Shown: in pieces, positions 4,143 through 47,533 of the stretch
Layout of the letters: each line of letters starts with the position of its first letter
How positions within the stretch are numbered: the first letter of the stretch is position 1
Assembly: GCA_023135165.1 (NCBI GenBank)
Contig: JAGLTS010000024.1
Location: 1 to 64,000, forward strand
Length of the DNA: 64,000 nt
Source of the DNA: Phycisphaerales bacterium
Lineage (GTDB): Bacteria; Planctomycetota; Phycisphaerae; Phycisphaerales; JAGLTS01
Direction of reading: 5' to 3'
Position numbers and translations under genes: made by a program
The notes under the pieces: generated by a model
What the model saw: only the letters and a program-made list of their open reading frames with translations
Databases searched by the model: none
Told to the model about the DNA's origin: nothing

Positions 4143-6125
4143 TCACGGGCACGGCACGTCATACACGGCAAGCAGCGCGCCGAGGTCCGCTTGATCCGTG
4201 TCGCCGTCACCGTCGATGTCGCCGCCCGCATCAAGCTCGTATGACGCAAGCAGGATACCTAGGTCCGCTTGATCGCGCTGCCCGTCGCCGTTCAGGTCGC
4301 CGGGACAATCCATATCCTCACACGAAATGCGCCGTACTTCGAACGCGTCGACGCCCGCCTCAACCACCGAACCATCTTCCAGATCCGATGCTTCAAAGCG
4401 CACTCTGACCTGGGCCGTCGGTGTCACGAAGTCCGCGGCGAGGAACGAATGCACGACCCAACCGCTGGACGTGCCCGGCCCGACGGTTTCCGCAAGCACC
4501 CAGGATGCACCGTCGTCGTTCGAAACATATGTCTTGAAAAGGTCGTTGTGCGGATCATTGCCGAAGTGATTCGTATACCACAGCGCGTAGCGGATCTCCG
4601 CATCGCCCTCGCTGAGATCGATCGTCGGCGATGCGAGATAGGTGTACCCGCCGTCCACATCAGAGTCACCATAGGCGTTTCCGGTGAGGTAGCAGCGCGC
4701 GGACCCGTCGTAGTCGGTCGGCGGGTCGCCGCGGTCGCCGCCCCCGGCCGGGATGCCCCGCTCCCACTGGCCGGCCGAGGCGTCGCCGCTGACACTCCAG
4801 CCCAGGTCGGTCTCGAAGTCGTTAGCAAACACGGTGATCAATTCTCCAACAAGCGCGGCGTACGTCTCGGCGGGCGCTCCGGCGGGGTCGTACACCACGC
4901 CGCAGCTTGCCCCTTCCGCACTGAAGTAGAACTCCGGGCCGTCATCGCATGAGGCGGCCGGCAGCAGCGCCTCGTACAGCCCGCCGCCCAACGATGTGAA
5001 CGGCTCGCTCAGCCACATCCCACCATCATAACGGTACGTTACTGCTCCCGTTTCCGGAATGTAGGTGTCGCCAATTTCGTCGATCCGCACTGTGATCGTA
5101 GTGGGTTCTCCGGGCGTCAGGGCCTCCGGCGGGCCGTCGGGCAGACTGATCTCGATGCGGATCGTCGGCGAGTACTCCACATAACACGCGGCGTAGCCGA
5201 TGTCCGAGCATTCGTACTCGATGCGCATGTAGCCGCCGTCTTCACCCCAACTGGGTCCCCAGGAGTTGCGCAGAAACCACACGCCGCTTGATCCCTGACT
5301 GTCATCCCAACCGGTCAGCACGACGACATGGTTGATCCACTCGTTCTCGCATGCGTTAAACACGCCGCCGGTGTACGCCTGAAACGCGCTGTTCACGTAG
5401 ACGCAGACTGCGATCGGGCCGTGGTCGTAGATCGCCTGCTTGAGTTGGCCGACGTTCGGCGTGCTCGACTGGTCGCCGACGAACGCCCAGTTGTCAAGCC
5501 AGTAGGAATGGATGTACGGGCAGTTACACGGCAGGTCTTCCGCCTCATACATGAAGTGCTGCTCGAGCACCGCGCCGTTGTCGCTGCACGGATCAGTCTT
5601 CCCACCGGTCGCCATCATGCTCAGCGCATCGTAATGCCAGCCGCCGCCACACCCCCACCCATCCTGGTTGCAGCTTACAATCCACTGCTCGGACAAATCC
5701 ACTTCTCCGCCGTCCGCGTACAGAATGGCATACTCGACAGCCCCGACCGCACCGAACGCCCAGCAGCTCCCGCAGCTGCCCTGGTTCCGGATCGTGAGTT
5801 GGCCTTGATCGCGCCAGTCGAAGTACGGAGGCAGGCCGCGCGTCGGCATGCACGGATCGAAACGACCCTCCTCTCGCCAATTCGGCGGCTCGACGGTTCC
5901 GCATAACTCACCGATCGACCGACCCGTCGCTTCGCTCGGCCCGACGGTGAACGTCCAGCCTGCCGACTCGCCCTGCTTGCGCAGCGCATCGATGTCCGCA
6001 TCGGTAAGTTGCGCCGCAGTTGGGGCCGCGGCGAATGATGCCGTCATGATCACCGCCGGAGCGAGGACCGCGCGAACGGCGCCCGCTAAGCGACAACCGA
6101 TCCTGTTCATGGTCGTGTACTGCAC
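4143..6125 (-). CDS. Secreted papain-family (C1A) cysteine peptidase with dockerin-like tail
   Basis: The 660-residue product has a signal peptide (around [20 protein letters not shown], ending PTAAQ) and a pro-region ([19 protein letters not shown]). A complete C1A core follows: oxyanion Gln and nucleophile in [12 protein letters not shown], His in [12 protein letters not shown], Asn in [11 protein letters not shown] beta-sandwich-like region comes next, then a dockerin-like tail ([20 protein letters not shown]) ending VPCP. The start is ambiguous: AAGGAG is 7 bases before GTG at 6125 but 22 bases before the in-frame ATG at 6110, so GTG is preferred. An out-of-frame ATG at 6127 opens a six-codon ORF that overlaps the 6110 ATG by four bases. 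It is paralogous to the next gene. Confidence 0.9.
4145..4311. repeat. Direct repeat encoding dockerin-like tail, copy 1
   Basis: Matches 6468-6634 at a constant offset of 2323 bases, with about 8 mismatches by eye over 167 bases. All mismatches are silent: the encoded last ~55 residues are identical. Confidence 0.9.
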
Positions 6126-6465
6126 ATTCAGTCTCCTTCGTGCTGCTCGGGAACCCGAGACTTGCGGCCGCTCTCGGACTGCACCAGCCAGCGCCTCCCG
6201 GGAGCGTGGCGTCGTCGCCGCCGCCGCCGTGATGGCTGCCACCAGCGAGAACCGCGTGGCTGCCTTGCTTTCATTCTACTCCGAACCCGCCGATATGCCT
6301 GAAAATCTGTCATATCGGCGCCGGTTGATCGGTCGTTATCCTATCCGCACGAGCACGCCGGCCCGGTTGGGGCGTTCCGCCGACCCACTCCATGAAAAAC
6401 GCCCCGTCCAATCGAACGGGGCGTCGTGTTGCAGCAGATTCTGATCATTCACAAGACGAGCATTC
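6126..6465. other. Intergenic region upstream of the first full C1 peptidase
   Basis: 340 bases. It holds the ribosome binding site near 6133-6138, a six-codon leader-like ORF (6127-6107), and the terminator of the next gene at 6395-6425. No other gene is supported. Confidence 0.6.
6395..6425 (-). terminator. Rho-independent terminator of the 6466-8889 gene
   Basis: ACGCCCCGT at 6399-6407 pairs with ACGGGGCGT at 6416-6424, and the minus strand continues TTTTTCATG. It is the third terminator of this design in 6 kb. Confidence 0.85.
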
Positions 6466-8889
6466 CTACGGGCACGGCACGTCATACACGGCAAGCAGCG
6501 CGCCGAGGTCCGCTTGATCCGTGTCGCCGTCACCGTCGATGTCGCCGCCCGCATCAAGCTCGTATGACGCGAGCAGGATGCCTAGGTCCGCTTGGTCGCG
6601 CTGCCCATCGCCGTTGAGGTCGCCCGGGCAGTCCTGCTCGAAGTCAACATTCACATCGAGGCTGAATTCGTGCAGTTCGCCGCCGGTGTGGTGTGCCGTT
6701 GACGTGCCAGTGACGCTCAACATCGTTCCCGATGTGACCGTGAATCGGCCGACCGTGTACGTCCCATTCCCGATGTTCTCCGTATCGAACCACACGGCGC
6801 TCATCGAGTCGTTCGTGACGCTCGGCATCTCGGCGAAACTGGGCATGCTGAAGTCGTACGCGCTGAAGAAACTGTCGAACTCGATCGACGGGTGCGCCGC
6901 CCACCACGTCGGCTGCGGCGTGTCCATGTCATACGTCGGATGCTGATAGAACGATCCATCGATGCTTGCAACCGCGTCGGTCGATGTCCAATCGTCGTCA
7001 TCGGTCATCATCACTTGCAGGTCGAACGTCTGAGCATGCGCCAGTGCTGGATCGTCGGCGATTGCCGCAGCGCTGATCGGCACTTCGACAAGCTGATGGT
7101 CGATGCTGGGGACGGGCGGCGAACCACCCAGCGCCCAGATCTCGATGTTGTCGATGTTCCAGCCGCAATACCGCCGGAGGTTGTCGGTCGTTCCCATCGT
7201 CCAGCGGACATACACGGTGGACTGATGATCCGCGACGGCGGAGATATCCAACTCGATGCGCTGCCAAGTGCTGTCAGTGATCTCGTCATCGTTCTCCCAG
7301 ACGGTCGTCCAGTTCACGCCGTTGTTGCTGACGCGCACGTAGGCATGGTCGTCGCCCGGATCTTCAACACCGAGCCACCGCCGGAACTTAAGCGTGACGT
7401 CGTGGTACTCGGAGCAGTCGATCGCAGTGGTGGTCAGGTGCTGTTCCGACAGACCGTTCGGGTAGTCGCCGTTGAGGTTGTAGCCGTATACGTTCAGGCC
7501 GAGGTACCCTCTCGTCGGATCGGGCGAGCCGTACTGCCCGCCGTCACCCGTCGGTTGGCCAAACGCCCAATCGCCCTCAGTGGTCCAGCCGGGATCGGTT
7601 GACAGGCCCCAACTGTAGATCAAACGCTGGATGCCGACCGTCAACGCGACATCGCGCGTCGTGTCGCCGATGGACGTGCTGCTCGTGAACGACAGCGTGT
7701 CGAAGTAGTCACCCTCGGGCAGCGCGTTTGTGGCCGAATTGACGGAAACGGTGACGTCGGTCGAATCGTGAGCCTCGAGGTATCCCGTCGCGCCGGTGAG
7801 CGTGAGCCACGGCTGCGTCTTGGTGACCTCGTATGTGAAGCCCGTGTCGCCGACGTTGTAAAGCGTGTACGTCTTGCTCTCAGGCGAGAACGGCCCACCT
7901 TCATCACCCAACGGTTCAAAGGCGGCGGTGGTGGGCTGAACGACCAGACCCTCACCACCGCTGTAGTTCACATACAACGCCGCGTAACCGATCTCCGAGC
8001 AGCCGTACGGGATTCGCATGTAGCCGCTCTCACCCCAGCCGCCCCAACTGTTCCTCATGAACCAGATGCCATTGCTGCCCTGATCGTCATCCCAACCCGT
8101 CAGGACGACGACGTGGTTGACCGACCCGGTCGAACAGGCGTTGAAGATGCCACCGCTGTACGCCTGGAACGCTTCGGTCACACGAACGCACACCGCGATC
8201 GGCCCGTGATCGAGAATCGCCTGCTTCATCTGCTCCACGGTCGGCGTGCCCCAATGCGGGCCGACGAACAACCAGGAATCCATCCAGTAGTCGTGCGGGT
8301 AGGGACACTCACACGGCGCATCGCTCGCTAAGTAACCGTAGTACTCCTCCAGCACCGCTCCATTGTGTCCGCACGGATCGGTGTATCCGCCGATCTCCAT
8401 GTACTCGCACGCCTCGTCGTGCCATCCGCCGCTGCAACTGCCTGCATACGTGCAGCTCACAAGCCACTGCTCGGACAGATCCACATCGAGGCCGTCCGCG
8501 ATCTTGATCACCGCCTCGAATGCGCCGACAGCGCCGAACGCCCAGCAACTCCCGCACCCGCCTTGATTGCGAATCGGCGTCACGCCGTCCACATCACGCC
8601 AGTCGAAGTAGTCCGGCAACCCGCGCAAGGGCATCAGATCGTCGAACCGATCCGGATCGCGCCAGTCCACCGGCTCAACGGCGCCGGCGAGGTCCTCAAG
8701 CGCATACCCCGTCGCGTCGTTGTGCCCCACGGTGAACGTCCAACCCTCCTCTTCACCCTGTTTGCGCAGCCGCTCGATATCCTCATCGGTGAGCTGCGCC
8801 GCTACCGGCCGAGCCGTGATGCACGCAGCCGCGGCAAGCAGAAACACGATAAATCCACAGAGCCAGCCCTTCTTCGCGGGAGTCGTCAT
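6466..8889 (-). CDS. Secreted papain-family (C1A) cysteine peptidase with dockerin-like tail
   Basis: The 807-residue product begins MTTPAKKGWLCGFIVFLLAA (signal peptide ending RPVAAQ), then a pro-region nearly matching its neighbour (QLTDEDIERLRKQGEEEGW). The C1A residues are intact: [24 protein letters not shown] and RNSWGGWGESG. Downstream is an Ig/ASPM-like stretch, a jelly-roll-like region, and the dockerin-like tail identical to that of 4143-6125. ATG at 8889 is preferred because GAGAGG lies about 9 bases upstream and it gives a normal signal peptide; the longer frame to 8937 does not. It probably digests extracellular protein while bound through its tail; that role is inference. Confidence 0.9.
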   Translation of the reverse strand: MTTPAKKGWLCGFIVFLLAAAACITARPVAAQLTDEDIERLRKQGEEEGWTFTVGHNDATGYALEDLAGAVEPVDWRDPDRFDDLMPLRGLPDYFDWRDVDGVTPIRNQGGCGSCWAFGAVGAFEAVIKIADGLDVDLSEQWLVSCTYAGSCSGGWHDEACEYMEIGGYTDPCGHNGAVLEEYYGYLASDAPCECPYPHDYWMDSWLFVGPHWGTPTVEQMKQAILDHGPIAVCVRVTEAFQAYSGGIFNACSTGSVNHVVVLTGWDDDQGSNGIWFMRNSWGGWGESGYMRIPYGCSEIGYAALYVNYSGGEGLVVQPTTAAFEPLGDEGGPFSPESKTYTLYNVGDTGFTYEVTKTQPWLTLTGATGYLEAHDSTDVTVSVNSATNALPEGDYFDTLSFTSSTSIGDTTRDVALTVGIQRLIYSWGLSTDPGWTTEGDWAFGQPTGDGGQYGSPDPTRGYLGLNVYGYNLNGDYPNGLSEQHLTTTAIDCSEYHDVTLKFRRWLGVEDPGDDHAYVRVSNNGVNWTTVWENDDEITDSTWQRIELDISAVADHQSTVYVRWTMGTTDNLRRYCGWNIDNIEIWALGGSPPVPSIDHQLVEVPISAAAIADDPALAHAQTFDLQVMMTDDDDWTSTDAVASIDGSFYQHPTYDMDTPQPTWWAAHPSIEFDSFFSAYDFSMPSFAEMPSVTNDSMSAVWFDTENIGNGTYTVGRFTVTSGTMLSVTGTSTAHHTGGELHEFSLDVNVDFEQDCPGDLNGDGQRDQADLGILLASYELDAGGDIDGDGDTDQADLGALLAVYDVPCP
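6468..6634. repeat. Direct repeat encoding dockerin-like tail, copy 2
   Basis: Partner of 4145-4311. The identity stops sharply at the start of the tail cassette, so the tail behaves as a module exchanged between genes. Confidence 0.9.
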
Positions 8890-9162
8890 TGCTGTTTTCC
8901 TCTCTTCGCTCTCATCGTGTGCCCGAACGGGCCACATCGCCGGAATCGGCGTTCACAGAGCATATCCGTAGCAAGCCGCCAGCGGATCGCCTGACTTCCC
9001 TCATTCTAGGGATAATCTCCCCCTCAACGTACGAAAATCCCGCGATACCGGACGTTTCCCCCCACTTCCACCTCCCCCAAGCCGATGCGCAGGTCACCAA
9101 AGGCGACGCAGGCTCCGCGTCTCCGCCCCGACTGACGCGCTCGACGAAAGCCCGAAAAAACC

Positions 9163-9440: not shown

Positions 9441-12260
9441 TCAGTCCGCATCCAGATCATTCAGCAGCCTCTGAGCCGCTTCCGCATTCTCCTGATCCCC
9501 AAGTGACGCAAACATGTCTCGCGCCGCCTCCAGAAGAACCCGCGCTGACTCCTTCCGTTCGCTCCGGCCGCACGCGTCCCCGAGCACGGCGAGCGTCCAT
9601 GCCTTGATCGATGCCTCCTCCTGATCGAGCCTTCGCACATCCTCGACAAGCGCCGCCGCCTGGTCGCGCGTGCCGGTCCGGTCAGAGCAGAACGCAGCGG
9701 TGCCCTCCCACACCACCTGCCTTGTCTCCTCAGCGACATCTGCACCATACGCGATGAGAAGCGCTGCAGCGAAATCGACTGCGGCAGGCGCGCATTGGTC
9801 AAACCCAACAGCGACTGCTGCTCCTCGCCCGATGTGCGCCAGCGCTTTCTGCTCCGCTGGCGCATCCTTCATCTCGATGACCGCCGTGTAGTCCGCGATC
9901 GCCTTCTGTGTCTGCGGCGGTGTGAGCATGCCGTACCTCACGCCACGGGCAAGAAACGCCTGCGCCTTCAGATCCGCTGGCGCATCCTTCATCTCGATGA
10001 CCGCCGTGTAGTCCGTGATCGCCTTTTTCATCTTCGGCGGTGTGAGCATGCCGTAGCTCACACCACGGTTGAAAAGCGCCTCCGCCTTCAGATCCGCTGG
10101 CGCATCCTCCATCTTGATGACCGCCGTGTAGTCCGCGATCGCTTTCTGCGTCTGCGGCGATGTGAGCATGCCGTACCTCACACCACGGTTGTAGAGCGCC
10201 CCCGCCAGCGCCTGAACCAAACGCTCGGGGCGCGCCGTGCCGCTCTCTGCACGCCCCTGGATCGCGTCGCGAAGCAGCGTCAGCAGCGTCTTGGTCATCG
10301 CCTCGCCATCGTCGTCAAGTGCGGAGGTAATCAGTAGCTGCATCACGCTGGCAACCGTGTACGCCCACGCGTCAATCGGTTCCCAACCGTCCGAATCACG
10401 CCACAGACCACCCTGCGGCATCGGAGCGCTCTCTCCGCCGGGCGGATTCTCTAGCAGCACCGACAGACTCTCGTGCTTCGGGAAGTCCCGCGCGCAGCGC
10501 AGCACGAACTCACCCATCATCTGTCCCTCGTGCCGCCACGCCTGCTCAACGAGACGGCGCGCGGCATCCCTCAAGTCATCCGATTCACCGTAGTCGATCG
10601 TGAAGCGCCGCTCACCGGCGAGCCGACCCAGGACAAACGCCTCGCCGAAGACATCCGGCTCGATCGGCGACATCCAGAACGCTCCGCCTCGCTGATCCTC
10701 ACGCCGACCCGCGAACGCGATGAGCCGATCACGCTGCGTCTGCTTGCTGTCACCCTGCTGCGGAATAACCCCGGCAAGTTCCGCATCCGTCAGGTACGCC
10801 TGCCCCTTGTGAACCCCACGCACCATCGTGGCGAGCATCAGAAGATTCGCATGCTTCTCGTTGATGCGAGGCTCACGCTCACGCCAGGCGCTCACCTCCC
10901 GTTTCAGGAGGTCATCAACAATGTTCCCTTGCGTCCATGACGCCACATCCGGCGTCTCGCCACGCTCCAGACAGTCCGCGTACACATCTGCGATCAGCGC
11001 CGCGTACAACGGCCGGCACTCCGGGTCGATCGTCTTGATCCGATCGAGCAACTCCTCTGAGTGCTCTGTCGGTCGCCCACGTGCGTCGAGCACCCACCCA
11101 AAGCAGTTCCACAGCGCATCATCGTGGAGCGGTTCGAGCGCGACGTGCCCACCTGATGCGCCATACCGTCCGTGCCGTGTCCGGTGAAGCGCCTCTCGGC
11201 GATCGCTCGTACCGATCAGATCCCGTTTCACCCACTCGCCCGCATCTCGCTCAAGGAGGAGGAACCGGACGCGGCACCCCTTCACGCCGGCGCTCTCGCG
11301 AGTTCGGCGGATCATCTCGCCGACCACCGATGCCCGAGATTGGGTGTAGTCGACGATGACAAGTGTCGGGCGCTCCAGATCCCAGCGCTCCCACTCGTTG
11401 AATGGCTCCGTCGTCGAGAGAAACCCCGTGCACCAGCCGTTGGGCGATGTGTCGTTCTTGAACCTGCGAGCGCGCAGGCAAAGCTCGTGCGCCAGGCGCG
11501 TCTTGCCGGCACCCGCCGATCCCGTCCACAACCACCACAGGACCTCCTCGGGCGCATCCAGAAACGCCTCCAAACTGGCCATCTCACTGGATCGACCCAG
11601 GAGCGGCACACGCCGAACGCTGTACAGGAACGGGTTGCCCGGCGTCTCTGCGGGATCCCAGATGTCCAGCCCGAGGTTGGGCCTGCGCTCCGTCCGCTCC
11701 AGCAATGTGGCGAGGTCGTCGTCGAGGTCGCGGTCTCGCTTGTACTGCAACGCATCGACCGCCTCACGAATGCTGCGCAGCTCCGTCAGCCCGATGCGGA
11801 TGTGCTCCGGCAGCGCAGCGAACCGCTCGTAGCGATGGGTGATGTAGTCGGCGATGGCGAGGTACGTCCGGTCATCCTCATTCCGAAGCGCCTCTGCGAT
11901 GCCGTCGCTCTTCGCCGCAAGCAGTTCCGCGAGCATGACGATCGGCGAGTCCTTGGTGTCTGTACCAACGCCGAGTTCACGAGCGAGATCCCCAAGCGCG
12001 ATGACCTCACCACGCCGGCGCGATGAAAGCTCATCAAGGCGCTTCGTGACCGCATCCAGGTCGTTCTTGCGTGCCCACGTGCGCCAGACGGATGCCGCTG
12101 CCGTCCCCGCCAGCGCACAGATCAACGCCGCAACAATCGGCACACCTGCCCCCGCCCCAACCGCCGCAGGCACGATGGTGATACCCGCCGCGCTCACAGT
12201 GACACTGTCACGAGCACAGTCCACGAGCTTCGCAATGGAGTGGTTGACACCCACACACAC
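9441..12260 (-). CDS. Membrane-anchored STAND-type NTPase with TPR-like tandem repeats
   Basis: The 939-residue product has an N-terminal hydrophobic segment at about residues 22-58, a helical linker, and a P-loop NTPase domain: Walker A GSAGAGKT at 247-254 and Walker B-like PTLVIVDYTQ at 298-307. After a long helical region, residues about 687-803 hold three near-identical 40-residue repeats (each with GVxYGML and ITDYTAVIEMKDAPA-like segments), encoded by exact 120 bp units; these resemble TPR or Sel1-like helices. The architecture fits STAND sensors (NTPase switch plus repeat sensor), several of which act in anti-phage defence. No effector domain was recognised. GTG at 12260 is the start used; other GTG codons are close by. 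Confidence 0.8.
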   Translation of the reverse strand: MCVGVNHSIAKLVDCARDSVTVSAAGITIVPAAVGAGAGVPIVAALICALAGTAAASVWRTWARKNDLDAVTKRLDELSSRRRGEVIALGDLARELGVGTDTKDSPIVMLAELLAAKSDGIAEALRNEDDRTYLAIADYITHRYERFAALPEHIRIGLTELRSIREAVDALQYKRDRDLDDDLATLLERTERRPNLGLDIWDPAETPGNPFLYSVRRVPLLGRSSEMASLEAFLDAPEEVLWWLWTGSAGAGKTRLAHELCLRARRFKNDTSPNGWCTGFLSTTEPFNEWERWDLERPTLVIVDYTQSRASVVGEMIRRTRESAGVKGCRVRFLLLERDAGEWVKRDLIGTSDRREALHRTRHGRYGASGGHVALEPLHDDALWNCFGWVLDARGRPTEHSEELLDRIKTIDPECRPLYAALIADVYADCLERGETPDVASWTQGNIVDDLLKREVSAWREREPRINEKHANLLMLATMVRGVHKGQAYLTDAELAGVIPQQGDSKQTQRDRLIAFAGRREDQRGGAFWMSPIEPDVFGEAFVLGRLAGERRFTIDYGESDDLRDAARRLVEQAWRHEGQMMGEFVLRCARDFPKHESLSVLLENPPGGESAPMPQGGLWRDSDGWEPIDAWAYTVASVMQLLITSALDDDGEAMTKTLLTLLRDAIQGRAESGTARPERLVQALAGALYNRGVRYGMLTSPQTQKAIADYTAVIKMEDAPADLKAEALFNRGVSYGMLTPPKMKKAITDYTAVIEMKDAPADLKAQAFLARGVRYGMLTPPQTQKAIADYTAVIEMKDAPAEQKALAHIGRGAAVAVGFDQCAPAAVDFAAALLIAYGADVAEETRQVVWEGTAAFCSDRTGTRDQAAALVEDVRRLDQEEASIKAWTLAVLGDACGRSERKESARVLLEAARDMFASLGDQENAEAAQRLLNDLDAD
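9851..10210. repeat. Three 120 bp in-frame tandem repeats in the STAND gene
   Basis: Units begin at 9851, 9971 and 10091 (at TCCGCTGGCGCATCC). Spacing is exactly 120 bases and divergence is low, so copy number could change by recombination or slippage. Confidence 0.95.
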
Positions 12261-12669
12261 AGGATATCAGATCACCCCTACACGACACGCGCAACGCCGC
12301 TTTGCGGCTTCGCGCGACCGTTAGCAAAACGCGTGCCGCGCTGAATAACCCGCGATTGCGATGTCAATCAGCGTGCGCAATAACCAAAAACCGGACGCTC
12401 CAAAACCGGCCAAAACCGCAGCAAAACTGACCGAAACTGATCCAAAACCGCGCGAAACCGCTCCAAAACACGCCAAAACCGACCGGTTTTGACACCGCAT
12501 ACCACGACGCATGCGCATGAACCAAGCACGCAGTGAGCGCGAACCAGCTTGCTGTACTGCAATCAGGGATCGCCCCCAGAACGACCACGCCAAAAAGCCC
12601 GTGCGCACGCTGCGATTCTTTTTCACGGACTTCGTCTTTTGTGCTGCAAGCTCGTGCCGGTGATGAAGC
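12261..12669. other. Intergenic region with phased A-tracts
   Basis: 409 bases upstream of the STAND gene. A hairpin (GCCGC-TTT-GCGGC near 12297-12310) is followed by the A-tract array at 12385-12490. Short frames here only reflect the array period and are not genes. Confidence 0.7.
12385..12490. repeat. Helically phased A-tract array, copy 1
   Basis: AAAA or AAA runs start at about 12386, 12402, 12412, 12423, 12434, 12444, 12455, 12465 and 12475, so spacing is 10-11 bases apart from the first. This is the helical repeat and predicts strong intrinsic curvature. The array matches 34675-34790 in reverse orientation, sharing GTTTTGGATCAGTTTC. Confidence 0.85.
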
Positions 12670-34530: not shown

Positions 34531-34674
34531 GCGCCCGGGGAGTCTATCCAGTGCACATCAAAGCTGACTCGCTGCGTCGGTTTTGTCCGCCAGATCCAGC
34601 CGATCGACTTCGGTTCTACACTCAGCGCGCGCACCACGGCGGGCATCTTGGCCCCAAATGCGCACGGATCGCTC

Positions 34675-34790
34675 GGTTTTGTGTTATCGGACTAGAGTTT
34701 TGGGCGAGTTTCAGCCGGTTTCAGCGAGTTTCGGCGCGTTTTGGATCAGTTTCAGCCCGTTTTGCGTCGGTTTTGAGCGACATTTTGAGG
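34675..34790. repeat. Helically phased T-tract array, copy 2
   Basis: TTT/TTTT runs start at about 34675, 34698, 34709, 34719, 34729, 34739, 34750, 34760, 34771 and 34783, with spacing mostly 10-11 bases. It is homologous to the inverted array at 12385-12490, sharing GTTTTGGATCAGTTTC. Strong curvature is predicted. It lies just upstream of tgt. Confidence 0.85.
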
Positions 34791-34880
34791 CTCGCTCGAG
34801 ATCGCGCGCGCATCGGCGAGGATGTGCGACGAAGAGCCGCGAGGACCGCAGTGGCGCGCATGTCGCGTGCGATGCGTGCG

Positions 34881-34929
34881 GTGCGTGGGGGTCGCCGTTG
34901 GTCCGCCACGGGCGGATTTCGATCAACCG
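34881..34929 (+). repeat. Dispersed palindromic element family B (TCCGCC-N3-GGCGGA), copy 1
   Basis: The core TCCGCC-ACG-GGCGGA at 34902-34916 is preceded by GTGGGGGTCGCCGTTGG and followed by TTTCGATCAACCG. Related copies lie at 37352, 43998, 44041 and, inverted, 47481. Confidence 0.75.
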
Positions 34930-34935
34930 ATTCCC

Positions 34936-34970
34936 AAAGCCCAGGGAAAGCTTTCCCTGGGCTTTTTCTC
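34936..34970. terminator. Perfect palindromic terminator
   Basis: AAAGCCCAGGGAAAG is followed directly by its exact complement (34936-34965) and then TTTTTCTC on the plus strand. It is bidirectional in principle. No gene ends just before it on the plus strand, so it may insulate the tgt promoter region or mark a lost gene. Confidence 0.8.
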
Positions 34971-35061
34971 ATCCCCCCGCACACTCACACCCCCACCACC
35001 TCCATCGCCCGCGACGTGCATCCCCTGGTCGTCGCGCGAGCCCGGCTCGGCACGAGCCGGC

Positions 35062-35172
35062 TGGCACGCCCGTTCCGTCCACACCTCGGCCGACCCTTGG
35101 CGAGGATGGTCACACGACTTCGACCCGCCTCGATGGGCGTCACGTACAATGCAGCCAAGCCGAGGCCGGTCC
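35062..35172 (+). repeat. ~115 bp promoter-like repeat, copy 1
   Basis: Matches 37466-37582 in the same orientation, with a conserved core TTGGCGAGGATGGTCACACG, then GACTTCG-N-CCCGCC, and the hexamer TACAAT at 35143-35148. The two copies bracket the membrane protein and prenyl-synthase-like genes. Confidence 0.8.
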
Positions 35173-35479
35173 TTGACCTGTCTGTCTCCGGGCCGGCCGC
35201 ACGTGGTGTCTGCTTTCCGCTCAGCAACCGTCAATCATGTACTTGTCCCCCCTCTTTCCCCTCTGTGCTGGCTGCGGCCTCGGTAGACGGACAACCCCGA
35301 CAGAACTTGACAATGCCCTGACCAATGCAAGACAATCCCATGCCCAAACTGCTTCACTCTGGTGGGCTGGAGAGTGGGCTTGCTTCCGAAAGGACCCCAG
35401 CGGATAACAAGGCCTAGCCCGTATGACGTCCTCTGCTGGCCCAGAGAGGCCGCTCCAGACCGTGGCCTGGGAGGTGATC

Positions 35480-36067
35480 ATGGTCCCGGACACACATCCC
35501 AGACGTCTCTACCGCACCAGGCACGGTATCTATGCTGGCGTCGTCAGTAACGTATTCTACATTCTTGCCGCCTTAGCTATGGGCTGCTTTTGGTATTACA
35601 ACTCGGACGAGGAGGTTCCCCTTCCGCCCGGCGCTCTACTCTTCGCAGGCGTCGCGATCGCCCTGTGTCTTCTCCTTCTGACCGGTGCTGGCTATTGTCT
35701 CCTGGCCCGCCGGCCTACCAGCACCACGAGAAACGGCGTGCTTCTCGTGCTGTCCGCATTCATCTGGGCAGTGCCATTATTCAACTGTGTCCTGTGCTCC
35801 GTTTCAGGTGGTGCTGACAACAGCCCACTCGTCCCGTTGTTCTTAAGTTCAGTCGCTGTAATCCTCGCATTCCTGCGTCGCCCCCTCGATATCATTCGAT
35901 TTGCTCTCATCATATTCGCCATGTATGCCCTCTCAGGCTGTTGGGAGCGCAATTGGCTTTCGGCGCTTTCGCCCGGCTTTCTAACGGTGCTCAAGTACAT
36001 CACCGTGGGAGCCTCGATCCTCATCGCGGCCTTCGTGACACTGCGTGCCACACACAACAAGGAGTAA
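35480..36067 (+). CDS. Polytopic membrane protein of unknown function
   Basis: The 195-residue product starts at ATG 35480 behind GGGAGGTG (the in-frame ATG at 35423 lacks this). It has about five hydrophobic helices (GVVSNVFYILAALAMGCFWY, ALLFAGVAIALCLLLLTGAG, VLLVLSAFIWAVPLFNCVLC, SVAVILAFL.. and YITVGASILIAAFVTLRA). No family was recognised. It ends 6 bases before the prenyl-synthase-like gene, so the two form an operon. By eye, base composition is less GC-rich than the flanking core genes. Confidence 0.75.
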   Translation: MVPDTHPRRLYRTRHGIYAGVVSNVFYILAALAMGCFWYYNSDEEVPLPPGALLFAGVAIALCLLLLTGAGYCLLARRPTSTTRNGVLLVLSAFIWAVPLFNCVLCSVSGGADNSPLVPLFLSSVAVILAFLRRPLDIIRFALIIFAMYALSGCWERNWLSALSPGFLTVLKYITVGASILIAAFVTLRATHNKE

Positions 36068-36073
36068 CGGCAG

Positions 36074-37129
36074 ATGCAGCCGCCGCCCACCCTATCTTCG
36101 AACTCCTCGCAGCAGGCGGATCATCATTGGCATAGTCGCCTTCCCCAGGGACTGACATCGTCTGCGCGACTTGCTGATACTCTCCTTGAGGATTGGTGTC
36201 TCGACAATCGCGTGCCTCGCCCACTTCTGCCAGCTGCCCGACTGGCTCTCTTCCCTGGATCCCGAATTCGTCCGGCTATCCTCCTTGCACTTTGCCGCGA
36301 AATAGGCGCTGCGCCAATGCGCCATCTTGCGTTGTCCATCGAACTGCTTCATCGTTCGAGCCTCGTCATCGATGACATGATCGATAGCGCGACAACCCGC
36401 AGCAACCACCCGACTGTTTGGGCGGCATATGGCTCCGAGACTGCAGCGTTGTTGTCACATTACCTCGTGGGACAGGCGCTTGCCAACTCCAGTACATATC
36501 TCCTTGCTGCGTACAACCAGATGATCTCCTCGGAATCGTTCGATCTCGCCGACGCAGGACTGCATCCATCGTTCGGGAGATACTGTTCGCTTATGTCTCG
36601 GCGAGTTGGGTCACTTTTCGATGTGGTCGCGACCACACCGTTCCACGAGGTCGGGCACTCGCGCGAGAAGCTCCGTCCTATCCGGAGAGCCGCTCGTCTT
36701 TTGGGAGTGCTGTATCAAGTGGTTGACGATCTTGACGATAACCCGATAACATCTGCCTCCGACCGAGAATGGCAAATCCCCGTGCGCGCCTGTGATCGCT
36801 GGAATATGCTCGAAGTAGCGCGACGAGTGTCGGCCTCACGTTATCAAAGCAACCGGGCCAACAGCGCGACAATGAACGGTGACCTTGCGCCCCTTAGCTA
36901 TGAGACTGCAATACAAGTGTCCGTGCGCGTCGCCGGCCAGTGGTTAGAACGTCTAGAACGGCATCTCGGATCTTCTGATGCCCAAATGTCATCGCTCTGG
37001 CAGGCTGTGAGATTCGTGCAGTGCCGACTGGAGGAGGCTGCGACCGGAGCAACTTCGAGGATCGAGCCCGCTATGGCGTTGGCTAGCCGCGATCGACATG
37101 TCCTCGTCCCAGGGCTCGCGAATGCGTAG
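36074..37129 (+). CDS. Divergent isoprenyl diphosphate synthase-like protein
   Basis: The 351-residue protein keeps both aspartate-rich motifs of trans-isoprenyl diphosphate synthases: DDMID at residues 100-104 and DDLDD at 218-222 (context YQVVDDLDDN), plus RIRPAILLALC where the family has GKRxRP. Differences from active enzymes are visible: the Lys of GKxxRP is Ser, the RR pair after the first motif is reduced to TTRS, and the K-T motif reads RVGSLF. It could make an unusual prenyl diphosphate, act as a terpene-type enzyme, or be inactive. It is coupled to a membrane protein and bracketed by repeats, unlike a housekeeping ispA. Confidence 0.78.
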   Translation: MQPPPTLSSNSSQQADHHWHSRLPQGLTSSARLADTLLEDWCLDNRVPRPLLPAARLALFPGSRIRPAILLALCREIGAAPMRHLALSIELLHRSSLVIDDMIDSATTRSNHPTVWAAYGSETAALLSHYLVGQALANSSTYLLAAYNQMISSESFDLADAGLHPSFGRYCSLMSRRVGSLFDVVATTPFHEVGHSREKLRPIRRAARLLGVLYQVVDDLDDNPITSASDREWQIPVRACDRWNMLEVARRVSASRYQSNRANSATMNGDLAPLSYETAIQVSVRVAGQWLERLERHLGSSDAQMSSLWQAVRFVQCRLEEAATGATSRIEPAMALASRDRHVLVPGLANA

Positions 37130-37351
37130 GGCAGATCGTAGACCAGCGCCTGTTCGAATCGGCGGCGGACAAGGTGGCAGGCTCCTCTGGTTGATGTCCG
37201 AGGCGGCAAGGGGGTAAATACAGCATTGACTCGCGCCGGTGAGGTGACTTGCATTCTCAATGATTGTGCGACACGGCTCGGCGGCGGCGGCCAGCGGGTT
37301 AGCGATTAGGGGAACAGCGTGGGTGCGGATTGGACCCGCGCGGCGGACGCG

Positions 37352-37402
37352 GTGATCGTGGGTTCGCCGGAGGCGGATTTGGCTGTGCTCAAGGCTGTGG
37401 GG
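37352..37402 (+). repeat. Dispersed palindromic element family B, copy 2
   Basis: GTGGGTTCGCCGGAGGCGGA is followed by TTTGGCTGTGCTCAAGG, close to the copies at 43998-44080. Confidence 0.7.
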
Positions 37403-37465
37403 ATGTCCAAAGCTTCGGTCGCTCTTGGCGACGTGCTGGCGAGGAAGACAAGGCTGCAGGCAGGA

Positions 37466-37582
37466 CAGCTGGCCGACCCGTCTGGCCCCAGCCTTGGTCG
37501 GCACTTGGCGAGGATGGTCACACGACTTCGTCCCGCCCCGATGGGCTTACGCGTACAATGCCCGCAAAGCGAGGGTGGTCCT
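37466..37582 (+). repeat. ~115 bp promoter-like repeat, copy 2
   Basis: Direct repeat of 35062-35172, with TACAAT at 37554-37559 and the following GC-AAGC-GAGG-GGTCCT segment conserved. It may promote the small gene at 37660. Confidence 0.8.
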
Positions 37583-37659
37583 CGCCCACACAACTTCCGG
37601 AAAACCCAGTTTTGAAAGACGGTTAGCTCAGACGTTCGGAGAAGAGAAGGAGTTAGCCC

Positions 37660-38022
37660 ATGTGCGACCAGGAGTTCACACTCGACACGCCAGAACAAGG
37701 CAAGCTGTGGCATGCACTCGATGCCGTCGGACGCCGTGTTTTTGAGCAACATCCAGCCAAGTTCGGGCGGCCCACGCCAGAAACCCGCATGTCACCTCAA
37801 CTCAAGAACGCTCTCTGCATTCGTTGTCGTCCGGCACGCGAGCAAGTGGCGCCATGGCTCCGACCCGATGGCTCTGGGGGCATACTGGCCGTAGACCGCA
37901 GCCAGCTTCAGGAGGAGGACATTTTCGTGTGGACCCAGACTGGTGACATCCATGTGCGAGCTTCTGCTGCTGTCGCGGCGGGAACGATTGTCCCTGAAGA
38001 CTCCGAACCAAGCGCTGAGTAG
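37660..38022 (+). CDS. Small protein of unknown function
   Basis: The 120-residue product has an excellent ribosome binding site (AAGGAG, 7 bases before ATG). It contains a CIRCRP motif and an Asp/Glu-rich C-terminal half (LQEEDIFVWTQTGDIHVRAS). No family was recognised. It lies between two GTTAGCT sequences (37622 and 38084), a layout like a gene cassette, although attC-type ends are not convincing. Confidence 0.65.
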   Translation: MCDQEFTLDTPEQGKLWHALDAVGRRVFEQHPAKFGRPTPETRMSPQLKNALCIRCRPAREQVAPWLRPDGSGGILAVDRSQLQEEDIFVWTQTGDIHVRASAAVAAGTIVPEDSEPSAE

Positions 38023-38100
38023 CGAATTGAGAGTGCGCCACCGGAGTTGCTTGAGAGCACTTTGCCTGAACTCGGCGGCGGCGTGTTAGCTGGAAGCAAG

Positions 38101-38133
38101 ACCCGAAAGCGGGTATATTTGGAAACCATATAC
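38101..38133 (+). promoter_or_regulatory. Inverted repeats upstream of the MltR-like gene
   Basis: ACCCG-AAAG-CGGGT (38101-38114) is followed by GTATAT-N9-ATATAC (38113-38133), an operator-like AT-rich palindrome 24 bases before the ATG at 38157. Confidence 0.4.
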
Positions 38134-38156
38134 ATAGAAGTCAAACGGATAAGATC

Positions 38157-38774
38157 ATGGCCAAGGACGATTGCATCTCAATCGACTTTCTAGAACGGGT
38201 TTCCGATGCGCTTTCCGAGGAATCTGATCGGGCATGCGTTATCCTGGTGGCGTCCTGGATCGCCCACTTTCTCAGAATCAAACTCGCTCAGGAGTTCTCC
38301 AAGGGGAATTCGGAGGCTCGCCATGCCCTTTTCTCCTTCAACGGTCCTTTCGCGACCGTCTCTGCGAAGTTGAATGCCGTGTTTTGCGCCGATTGGATCG
38401 ACAGCGATGTGTATCACGACCTGCAGGTGATCCGAAAACTGCGGAACACATTCGCGCATTCGATTGACAGCCACACGCTTCATGAGGAGCCGTTCCCTGC
38501 CATGGTAGCGAAGCTCCGGGTGCCCAAGCGCCAGTTCCACGACTGGGGACAATTGAGTGCGGCGACAACCGACACCGGAGTGGTGTTTTTCACAGGTGAA
38601 CGACCCGACGAGGCGACAGACGATCTTGATGTGAGCAAGATCAGCTTTCGTATGGGTGCCTCGGTAATCATCGCGGTCCTTGTTGCCAATCTCGGCATAC
38701 ACGTCGATGCTGATGGATTAGCCGGTACTGTCCTATTCGAACTTCCCGAGCACATGCGGGAGATCTCGGAATGA
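38157..38774 (+). CDS. MltR-family (DUF4145-like) protein
   Basis: The 205-residue protein matches the MltR pattern: ALSEESDRACVILVASWIAH, FNGPFATVSAKLNAVF, and DLQVIRKLRNTFAHSID. In E. coli MltR represses the mannitol operon without a DNA-binding domain. Relatives are often encoded alone in mobile regions, where the Arg-Asn-x-x-(A/S)-H motif is also typical of HEPN-like folds. No mannitol gene is nearby, so a sugar-related role is not supported. Confidence 0.82.
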   Translation: MAKDDCISIDFLERVSDALSEESDRACVILVASWIAHFLRIKLAQEFSKGNSEARHALFSFNGPFATVSAKLNAVFCADWIDSDVYHDLQVIRKLRNTFAHSIDSHTLHEEPFPAMVAKLRVPKRQFHDWGQLSAATTDTGVVFFTGERPDEATDDLDVSKISFRMGASVIIAVLVANLGIHVDADGLAGTVLFELPEHMREISE

Positions 38775-38814
38775 ACCTCTCCTTCAGCGGGGGAGGGAGG
38801 GGATAAGTACATTA

Positions 38815-38906
38815 GATGGACGCGCATCGTGCAACCGTGTGCGTGTTGCAATTCGGGGGTGCACCGGACTCACAGAGTCCGGCTCTCTCCGTTGCGAAGT
38901 CGGGTG
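38815..38906 (+). repeat. Direct repeat flanking the M50-like gene, copy 1
   Basis: GATGGACGCGCATCGTGCA, then TCGGGGGTGCACCGGACTCA and CAGAGTCCGGCTCTCCG-type sequence. It contains the hairpin CCGGACTC-ACA-GAGTCCGG. It matches 39611-39722 in the same orientation. Confidence 0.85.
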
Positions 38907-38963
38907 CCTGTTGCTTGTCTCTGCCCGGGTGATGGCGCACGTGAACGGATGACGCACGATTCG

Positions 38964-39548
38964 TCAGGCCCATGTGTATGCGAACTCAGCGATGAGCAAC
39001 AGACCCGCAATCGCTGCTGTGGTGTAAGCCACACGAGCGTTGACGCGACCATGACTGGAAGCGAGGCCGAATGAAGGACCGAGGCCGTTCCATAGGATGA
39101 ATCCAGGCGGCACGGTGATGGCGCCGAATAACCATAGCTGCCATGGGGCCGCTCCGTAACAGAGCAGGTCGCCTGCATCACCTGCATGCATGAACGAGCC
39201 GACACCGAGGTAGAGCCCGTTGACGATGAGGCAGAAGCCCGTGAAGAAGAGCACGACATAGAGACCCTGGGCGTGAAGAAACCGACAAGCGACCGCAATC
39301 AGCGCAGGAATCGCTGAGCCCAACACTGCGCCGCACCATGCAACGACAAGCGGATGAGGATTGACGGCAAGGTCTGTGCGAGAAAACTCCAGGGGATTCA
39401 GGACCACCGCAGAGATACGGCCACCGGTTGCGAGCGCGCCCAGGACGTGCCCAAGTTCGTGAACCACTTGCATGCCGAGCCACGACAGCACGATCGTGCT
39501 GCCGATCAGCACGAGTTGAGCGAGCGACATGCCTTTGGGGAGTGCCAT
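38964..39548 (-). CDS. M50-like membrane metalloprotease
   Basis: From ATG 39548 the 194-residue product has about five TM segments. It carries the zinc motif HELGH inside MQVVHELGHVLGALATGG and a later loop GSFMHAGDAGDLL whose Asp may be the third ligand, as in the M50 (S2P-like) group. The frame runs open far upstream to 40679, but that part is antisense to 39975-40733. The gene is enclosed by direct repeats and appears transferred as a unit. Confidence 0.78.
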   Translation of the reverse strand: MALPKGMSLAQLVLIGSTIVLSWLGMQVVHELGHVLGALATGGRISAVVLNPLEFSRTDLAVNPHPLVVAWCGAVLGSAIPALIAVACRFLHAQGLYVVLFFTGFCLIVNGLYLGVGSFMHAGDAGDLLCYGAAPWQLWLFGAITVPPGFILWNGLGPSFGLASSHGRVNARVAYTTAAIAGLLLIAEFAYTWA

Positions 39549-39610
39549 CTGACAGCTGATTGTGCGGTTGAGGCACACCCCGTCAAGTGGCGCGGAACGG
39601 GCTGAATTAA

Positions 39611-39722
39611 GGTGGATGCGCATCGTGCAGGTGTGCGCGATTGCGAACGCGTGTGAGCGTGTTGCTGTTCGGGGGTGCACCGGACTCACAGAGTCTGGCG
39701 CTCTCCGTTGCGTAGTCGAGCG
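39611..39722 (+). repeat. Direct repeat flanking the M50-like gene, copy 2
   Basis: Begins GGTGGATGCGCATCGTGCAG and includes TCGGGGGTGCACCGGACTCA and CTCTCCGTTGCG. It lies about 800 bases from copy 1. A partial third copy follows at 39785-39812. Confidence 0.85.
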
Positions 39723-39840
39723 CGTGATGACAGGAACGGTCAGCGCTCCGCTGCGCGTCGCGGCTACACGCGAACGCGAAGCGATGCGCGGCGGACTCTG
39801 TGTTGCGAAGTCGGGCGCGTGTGCGTCGTGCAGGTGGTAG

Positions 39841-39871
39841 GTTCCCGCAGGTACAAGTTCCTGCGGCTTTG
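39841..39871 (-). repeat. Palindromic hairpin, dispersed family A, copy 2
   Basis: The reverse complement reads CCCCAAAGCCGCAGGAACTT then GTACCTGCGGGAAC, nearly identical to 9401-9433 but inverted. Confidence 0.7.
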
Positions 39872-39974
39872 GGGAAGCGGCGCGTGGGGTTTCCGTCGGG
39901 TTCACCGGACTTGCTCGACCGATGCTATGCTGGGCGGTGCGGTGCGATGCGGCGCCGATCGAGGACTTGTGACC

Positions 39975-43997: not shown

Positions 43998-44080
43998 GTG
44001 GGGGCGTGGGTCCGCCAGAGGCGGATTTCGCTGCGCTCAACCGCGCCGGAGGCGGATTTCGCTGCGCTCAAGGTTGGGGG
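43998..44080 (+). repeat. Dispersed palindromic element family B, two tandem copies
   Basis: TCCGCC-AGA-GGCGGA at 44011-44025 and GCCGGAGGCGGA at 44045-44056 are each followed by TTTCGCTGCGCTCAA. Both lie between the kinase and ECF genes. Confidence 0.8.
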
Positions 44081-47480: not shown

Positions 47481-47533
47481 CGACCTTGAGCGAAGTCCGC
47501 CCCTGGCGGACCAACGGCGGACCCAACCCCCAC
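47481..47533 (-). repeat. Dispersed palindromic element family B, inverted copy
   Basis: The reverse complement shows GGGTCCGCCGTTGGTCCGCC, AGGGGCGGA, CTTCGCTCAAGG, as in the copies at 34881 and 43998. It lies between the convergent UbiA-like and CPBP genes. Confidence 0.75.

Follow-up and report, generated by a model that had tools for sequence, protein, structure and literature searches.

The array of T-tracts at positions 34675-34790 of the window (the whole 64,000-nt stretch of Phycisphaerales DNA that was analyzed) makes up the core of an element of ~205 bp, delimited by alignment of its copies to positions 34658-34862. The element is discrete and multi-copy, its geometry is fixed and its boundaries are exact, and other genomes hold orthologous counterparts. 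The conserved features are geometric, namely the tracts, their phase, and the short boxes that bound them; such conservation fits a site of DNA wrapping or looping.

Anatomy and genomic copies of the element

The window copy contains nine T-runs with starts from 34698 to 34783, at successive spacings of 11, 10, 10, 10, 11, 10, 11, and 12 nt, plus a tenth run at 34677, two helical turns upstream of the others. When the 64-kb window was shuffled under a dinucleotide model, chains of T-runs reached three at most. Likewise, the three-tract pattern GTTTYN{5,6}GTTTYN{5,6}GTTTY had 12 matches in the window, every one inside this array or the related first array described below, and none in 100 shuffles; a chance origin of the array is ruled out by these shuffles. 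The T-run periodicity described in an earlier, sequence-only reading was thus borne out, as nine phased runs with an outlier. The limits given there for the array are those of its core, and the element reaches past them on both sides. Its parts, together with the first array, are as follows.

34658-34665, plus strand: left box ATGCGCAC (G/ATGCGCAC form; ATGCGCACGGA in the window copy; family consensus GTGCGCACGGA), from copy alignment and box position
34677-34680, plus strand: outlying (tenth) T-run, two turns before the phased array, from the sequence
34681-34697, plus strand: anchor GTGTTATCGGACTAGAG, strongly conserved among copies, from copy alignment
34698-34786, plus strand: nine phased T-tracts (GTTTY), predicted to be strongly curved, from spacing, alignment, and a curvature model
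34803-34812, plus strand: second box CGCGCGCGCA, whose GCGCGCGC core follows the left box by 146 bp, from alignment and box distance
34854-34862, plus strand: third box GCGCGCATG (consensus GGTGCGCATG), less conserved, at the right end of the alignable element, from copy alignment
12402-12478, minus strand: first array, a divergent subfamily of the same element, from nhmmer (E=8e-7)

Read from left to right, the element consists of the left box, a variable linker, an anchor (GTGTTATCGGACTA), the nine phased T-tracts, a second linker, the box CGCGCGCGCA, and the looser third box GGTGCGCATG. The copy alignment revealed another variant of the left end, which reads GGAAAACG where the window copy has its outlying T-run. 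Of 34 copies, 32 place the second box 146 bp after the first. By direct reading, purines and pyrimidines alternate strictly in GTGCGCAC, GCGCGCAC, and CGCGCGCGCA. We found 38 occurrences of GTGCGCAC in the sampled intergenic DNA and none in 271 kb of coding DNA, where the avoidance is modest (0 observed vs. 5.1 expected under synonymous shuffling). When palindromic octamers were compared, the excess in intergenic DNA was centered on GTGCGCAC and the CG-alternating octamers of box 2 and did not extend to alternating octamers generally. Past the ends of the element the aligned flanks diverge and hold other dispersed repeats. One of these, AAAGCCCAGGGAAAGCTTTCCCTGGGCTTTTT, forms a perfect hairpin at 34938-34965 and adjoins the window copy and several others; a second, CCGGCTCGTGCCGAGCCGGGCTCGCGCGATGACC, also recurs next to copies.

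A 131-bp query matched at least 40 places in the window's own genome, on both strands and at 86-96% identity; this number is a minimum, as the 3.9-Mb assembly is a draft of 119 contigs and several copies fall at contig ends. A pattern search of the genome gave 228 matches compared to 18 for a reversed control. These counts rule out a local two-copy duplication. All 43 sampled arrays were intergenic, with 77% of the window called coding by a simple codon-usage script. Flanking genes were arranged in tandem (13 and 5 in the two directions), convergently (8), or divergently (~10), and no consistent relation of the copies to promoters was found. A position upstream of tgt, pointed out in the sequence-only reading for this copy, is not a recurrent property of the family. 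The closest pair of copies differed by 7.6%; thus, the family is not the product of a fresh expansion.

The first array had been described as an inverted, homologous copy 22 kb away. Its inverted similarity is genuine (48 nt at 81% identity, including GTTTTGGATCAGTTTC) and the two arrays are related, but they are two among many, and the first belongs to a divergent subfamily instead of being a close copy. It has the anchor GTCGTGGTATG and box-like sequences at 12373 (GTGCGCAA) and 12511 (ATGCGCAT). Other members of this second subfamily, recognized by the same anchor, are two inverted copies on contig C6 and one on contig C38. On C6, the two arrays lie in a ~250-bp inverted repeat (locus L085, 3000-3300 and 5330-5620) that resembles a composite element and brackets sulfate adenylyltransferase-like and acetyltransferase-like genes.

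Conserved geometry and counterparts in other genomes

Comparison of nearest copy pairs showed differences at 4 of 408 T-core positions (1.0%) and at 94 of 645 spacer positions (14.6%; Fisher p=1e-16), making the T-cores ~15-fold more conserved than the spacers. The G that precedes each tract was conserved about as well as the T-core, and the first 14 bases of the anchor differed by 2.9%. A wedge model put the end-to-end length at 0.42 of the contour; at the family median, the predicted curvature exceeded that of all 412 window tiles. With T-runs recurring at every helical turn, strong curvature is predicted between the two fixed short boxes.

No close relative turned up when 40 genomes of the order were searched at the DNA level, and an exact-spacing scan of GTDB genomes returned three unrelated single matches. 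Nonetheless, the same architecture occurs with different sequence in another family of the order, in genomes G038, G054, and G048. In a survey of 301 genomes for the three-tract pattern, G038 stood out and G054 did so more weakly. G038 has ~10 array loci with their own sequence and spacing and the same box-array-box order; one of its copies carries exactly two extra 10-bp units, placing its boxes 155 instead of 135 bp apart. Box pairs separated by 138-162 bp numbered 118 in G054 and 35 in its congener G048, compared to none in either genome for a reversed-pattern control. A box-pair excess was also seen in four genomes of family f2, where the inspected matches were GC-rich, coding-like, and devoid of phased T-tracts, and these were rejected.

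In the G054 and G048 units, A- and T-tracts are mixed and in phase with the helix. For 34 non-redundant units, helical phasing of the tracts was 0.20, relative to a shuffle maximum of 0.029, and in units of 146-150 bp the periodicity was strongest in the middle and weakest at the boxes. Each box is an octamer close to a palindrome, flanked on one side by a conserved AAA; the boxes are inverted in many units and direct in others, the core itself being palindromic. Box distances cluster at ~149, 159, 205, 215, and 227 bp, and a helical quantization of these distances (p ~5e-12) fell to p ~0.02 once related units were collapsed, so that whole-turn steps are only suggestive. Placement beside terminators in these two genomes (8 of 160 outermost boxes vs. 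14 of 800 random positions) was too weak a signal.

Of 26 G048 loci, ten had flanks in common with loci of the element in G054, and for eight of these the homology was supported at the protein level; given the genome fraction sampled, ~0.2 would be expected. The box distance is retained in only some of the eight orthologous pairs; the others differ in layout. At L207/L232 the distance is 215 bp in both genomes, and at L269/L224 a 149-bp unit aligns without indels at ~60% identity. The clearest orthologs keep tracts and spacing while the remaining sequence changes. In G015, which belongs to the same genus as G038, no array was present downstream of the two orthologous genes tested, and the element is sporadic, being missing from most of the order. 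Taken together, the loci shared by G054 and G048 and the absences in G015 indicate that the element has been retained across some distances and has come or gone across others.

The sequence-only reading had held that the arrays are a dispersed element kept for its shape, and not chance, with a nucleoid-protein, supercoiling, or domain-boundary site as candidate roles. Retention for shape is well supported by the at least 40 copies, the conservation of the T-cores, the 146-bp box distance in 32 of 34 copies, and the diverged counterparts elsewhere. The alignment that it had proposed, of copies in the genome and in relatives, showed tracts and box distance to be kept while spacers vary, and the same architecture to exist at diverged sequence; a family of just two copies with spacing that drifts freely in relatives is not what was found.

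A proposed DNA-shaping role and its alternatives

We give an even chance to the proposal that the element is a chromosomal DNA-shaping site, in which box-bounded curved DNA forms a wrap or loop. Two alternating purine-pyrimidine boxes (G[T/C]GCGCAC type) would hold the ends of the curved stretch, and A/T-tracts placed once per helical turn would bend the DNA between them toward a loop or superhelical wrap. A putative box-binding architectural protein could exploit this pre-bent DNA to set up a fixed loop or wrap in intergenic gaps, which would probably serve to organize or insulate the chromosome. The dispersed, sequence-diverged counterparts suggest such a role, and recognition by a protein is suggested because the G054 and G048 boxes have a one-sided AAA flank; no protein that binds the boxes was found. 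We infer protein binding, looping, and a function for the site.

The idea that phased A-tracts shape bacterial nucleoids is an old one, framed mostly in terms of a diffuse signal. Genome-wide A-tract periodicity has been tied to intrinsic curvature and nucleoid structure (PMC3940949); that periodicity is a diffuse statistical signal, whereas the element in the window is discrete and bounded, with boxes and copies. More tentatively, and at well under even probability, the units may represent an undescribed class: box-bounded, nucleosome-sized (~147-bp) curved units in tens to more than 100 copies, conserved in geometry instead of sequence and read by a putative dedicated wrapping or looping protein. 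No description of such an element was found in the open-access literature searched. The element would offer a handle on the identity of the protein that recognizes intrinsic curvature in these bacteria, and a way to ask how such sites affect chromosome folding, supercoiling, or gene insulation.

The main rivals are a MITE-like repeat, old and immobilized, and a strong site for DNA gyrase. Under the first, which we judge unlikely though deserving of serious weight, the element is a non-autonomous MITE- or REP-like mosaic in which the boxes serve as transposase ends and the curved core aids the transposition complex, the copies being old and inert. Dispersed intergenic repeats of the BIME/REP and MITE types may have DNA-bending or protein-binding functions (PMC2817692, PMC10969869), and they share with our element, as do MITEs such as Correia elements carrying IHF sites, a high copy number, intergenic location, and mosaic structure. 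Its lineage-specific families, the inverted box pairs of many G054 units, the two empty orthologous sites in G015, the other dispersed repeats in its mosaic flanks, and the inverted pair around the sulfate adenylyltransferase-like gene on contig C6 are all consistent with mobility, and a MITE origin is plausible. Two marks of one were not found, however, namely target duplications and recent identical copies: no target-site duplication was detected among 27 copies, with flank matches in no clear excess over mispaired controls at any boundary offset, and the 7.6% between nearest copies leaves no sign of a recent burst. In addition, no long, transposase-bearing version occurred among the loci retrieved, eight G054/G048 loci are at shared positions, and T-tracts are conserved even in the nearest copies, although this conservation could also be needed for transposition of a source element. 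REPs are palindromic hairpins of 20-40 bp (PMC3733652), whereas in our element phased tracts fill a ~150-bp core bounded by boxes; alignment folding revealed no conserved hairpin of the REP/BIME type and no covarying structure on either strand, the boxes being palindrome-like over 8-10 bp only. Also in contrast to REPs and MITEs, the architecture is kept across genomes without sequence identity.

As a strong gyrase site, an improbable reading, the phased A/T modulation would wrap DNA on the gyrase C-terminal domains and localize supercoiling activity. Gyrase is one of the proteins that bind BIMEs. These repeats are reported to be sites for several proteins (PMC2817692). The Escherichia coli gyrase motif is a degenerate 130-bp sequence with GC content varying every 10.75 bp in both arms, around a center of ~36 bp that lacks periodicity (PMC6379681). 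Unit lengths of ~147-149 bp and periods of 10.2-10.75 bp resemble this motif, and the motif and strong gyrase sites (Mu, pSC101) are similar to our element in being ~130-150 bp long, helically periodic in A/T, and dispersed (PMC6379681). The periodicity of our units, however, peaks in the center, the opposite of the gyrase motif, to which GYGCGCAC boxes are also foreign.

Two further readings have little to recommend them. It is very improbable that the element responds to supercoiling without a dedicated protein, its boxes forming Z-DNA on either side of a curved segment at plectoneme tips: the strict purine-pyrimidine alternation of the three box sequences and the strong predicted curvature agree with this, but the excess is confined mainly to GTGCGCAC and the CG-alternating octamers of box 2, and the one-sided AAA flank suggests protein recognition. 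Least probable is a minus-strand promoter for a small RNA or a flanking gene, with curved A-tracts upstream of it, since despite minus-strand A-tracts that precede a conserved CTAGTCCGATAACAC stretch and hairpins in some left flanks, the window had no Rfam match at gathering thresholds, covariation in the copies did not exceed column shuffles, and flanking gene orientations are mixed. A structured RNA is unsupported on the same two RNA criteria.

ParR/parC-type plasmid centromeres have phased 11-bp iterons. They resemble the proposed DNA-shaping site in that short units recur with each helical turn and are read from a single face of the DNA, and differ from it in that the element in the window has many chromosomal copies, spacers free to vary, and flanking boxes.

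Other features of the window

A predicted 939-aa protein without a Pfam match (9441-12260, minus strand) contains three tandem 120-nt repeats (9837-10196). Two adjacent large predicted proteins (4143-6242 and 6466-8937) are related, with several stretches 77-95% identical. Coding scores are low across 5.4 kb downstream of the array (34531-39926), save for a polyprenyl-synthetase-like gene at 36074-37129; this segment is possibly acquired DNA or has atypical codon use. Further dispersed intergenic repeats, of the GGCGGATTTCGCTGCGCTCAA type, were found at 37365-37401, 44013-44080, and 47486-47527.
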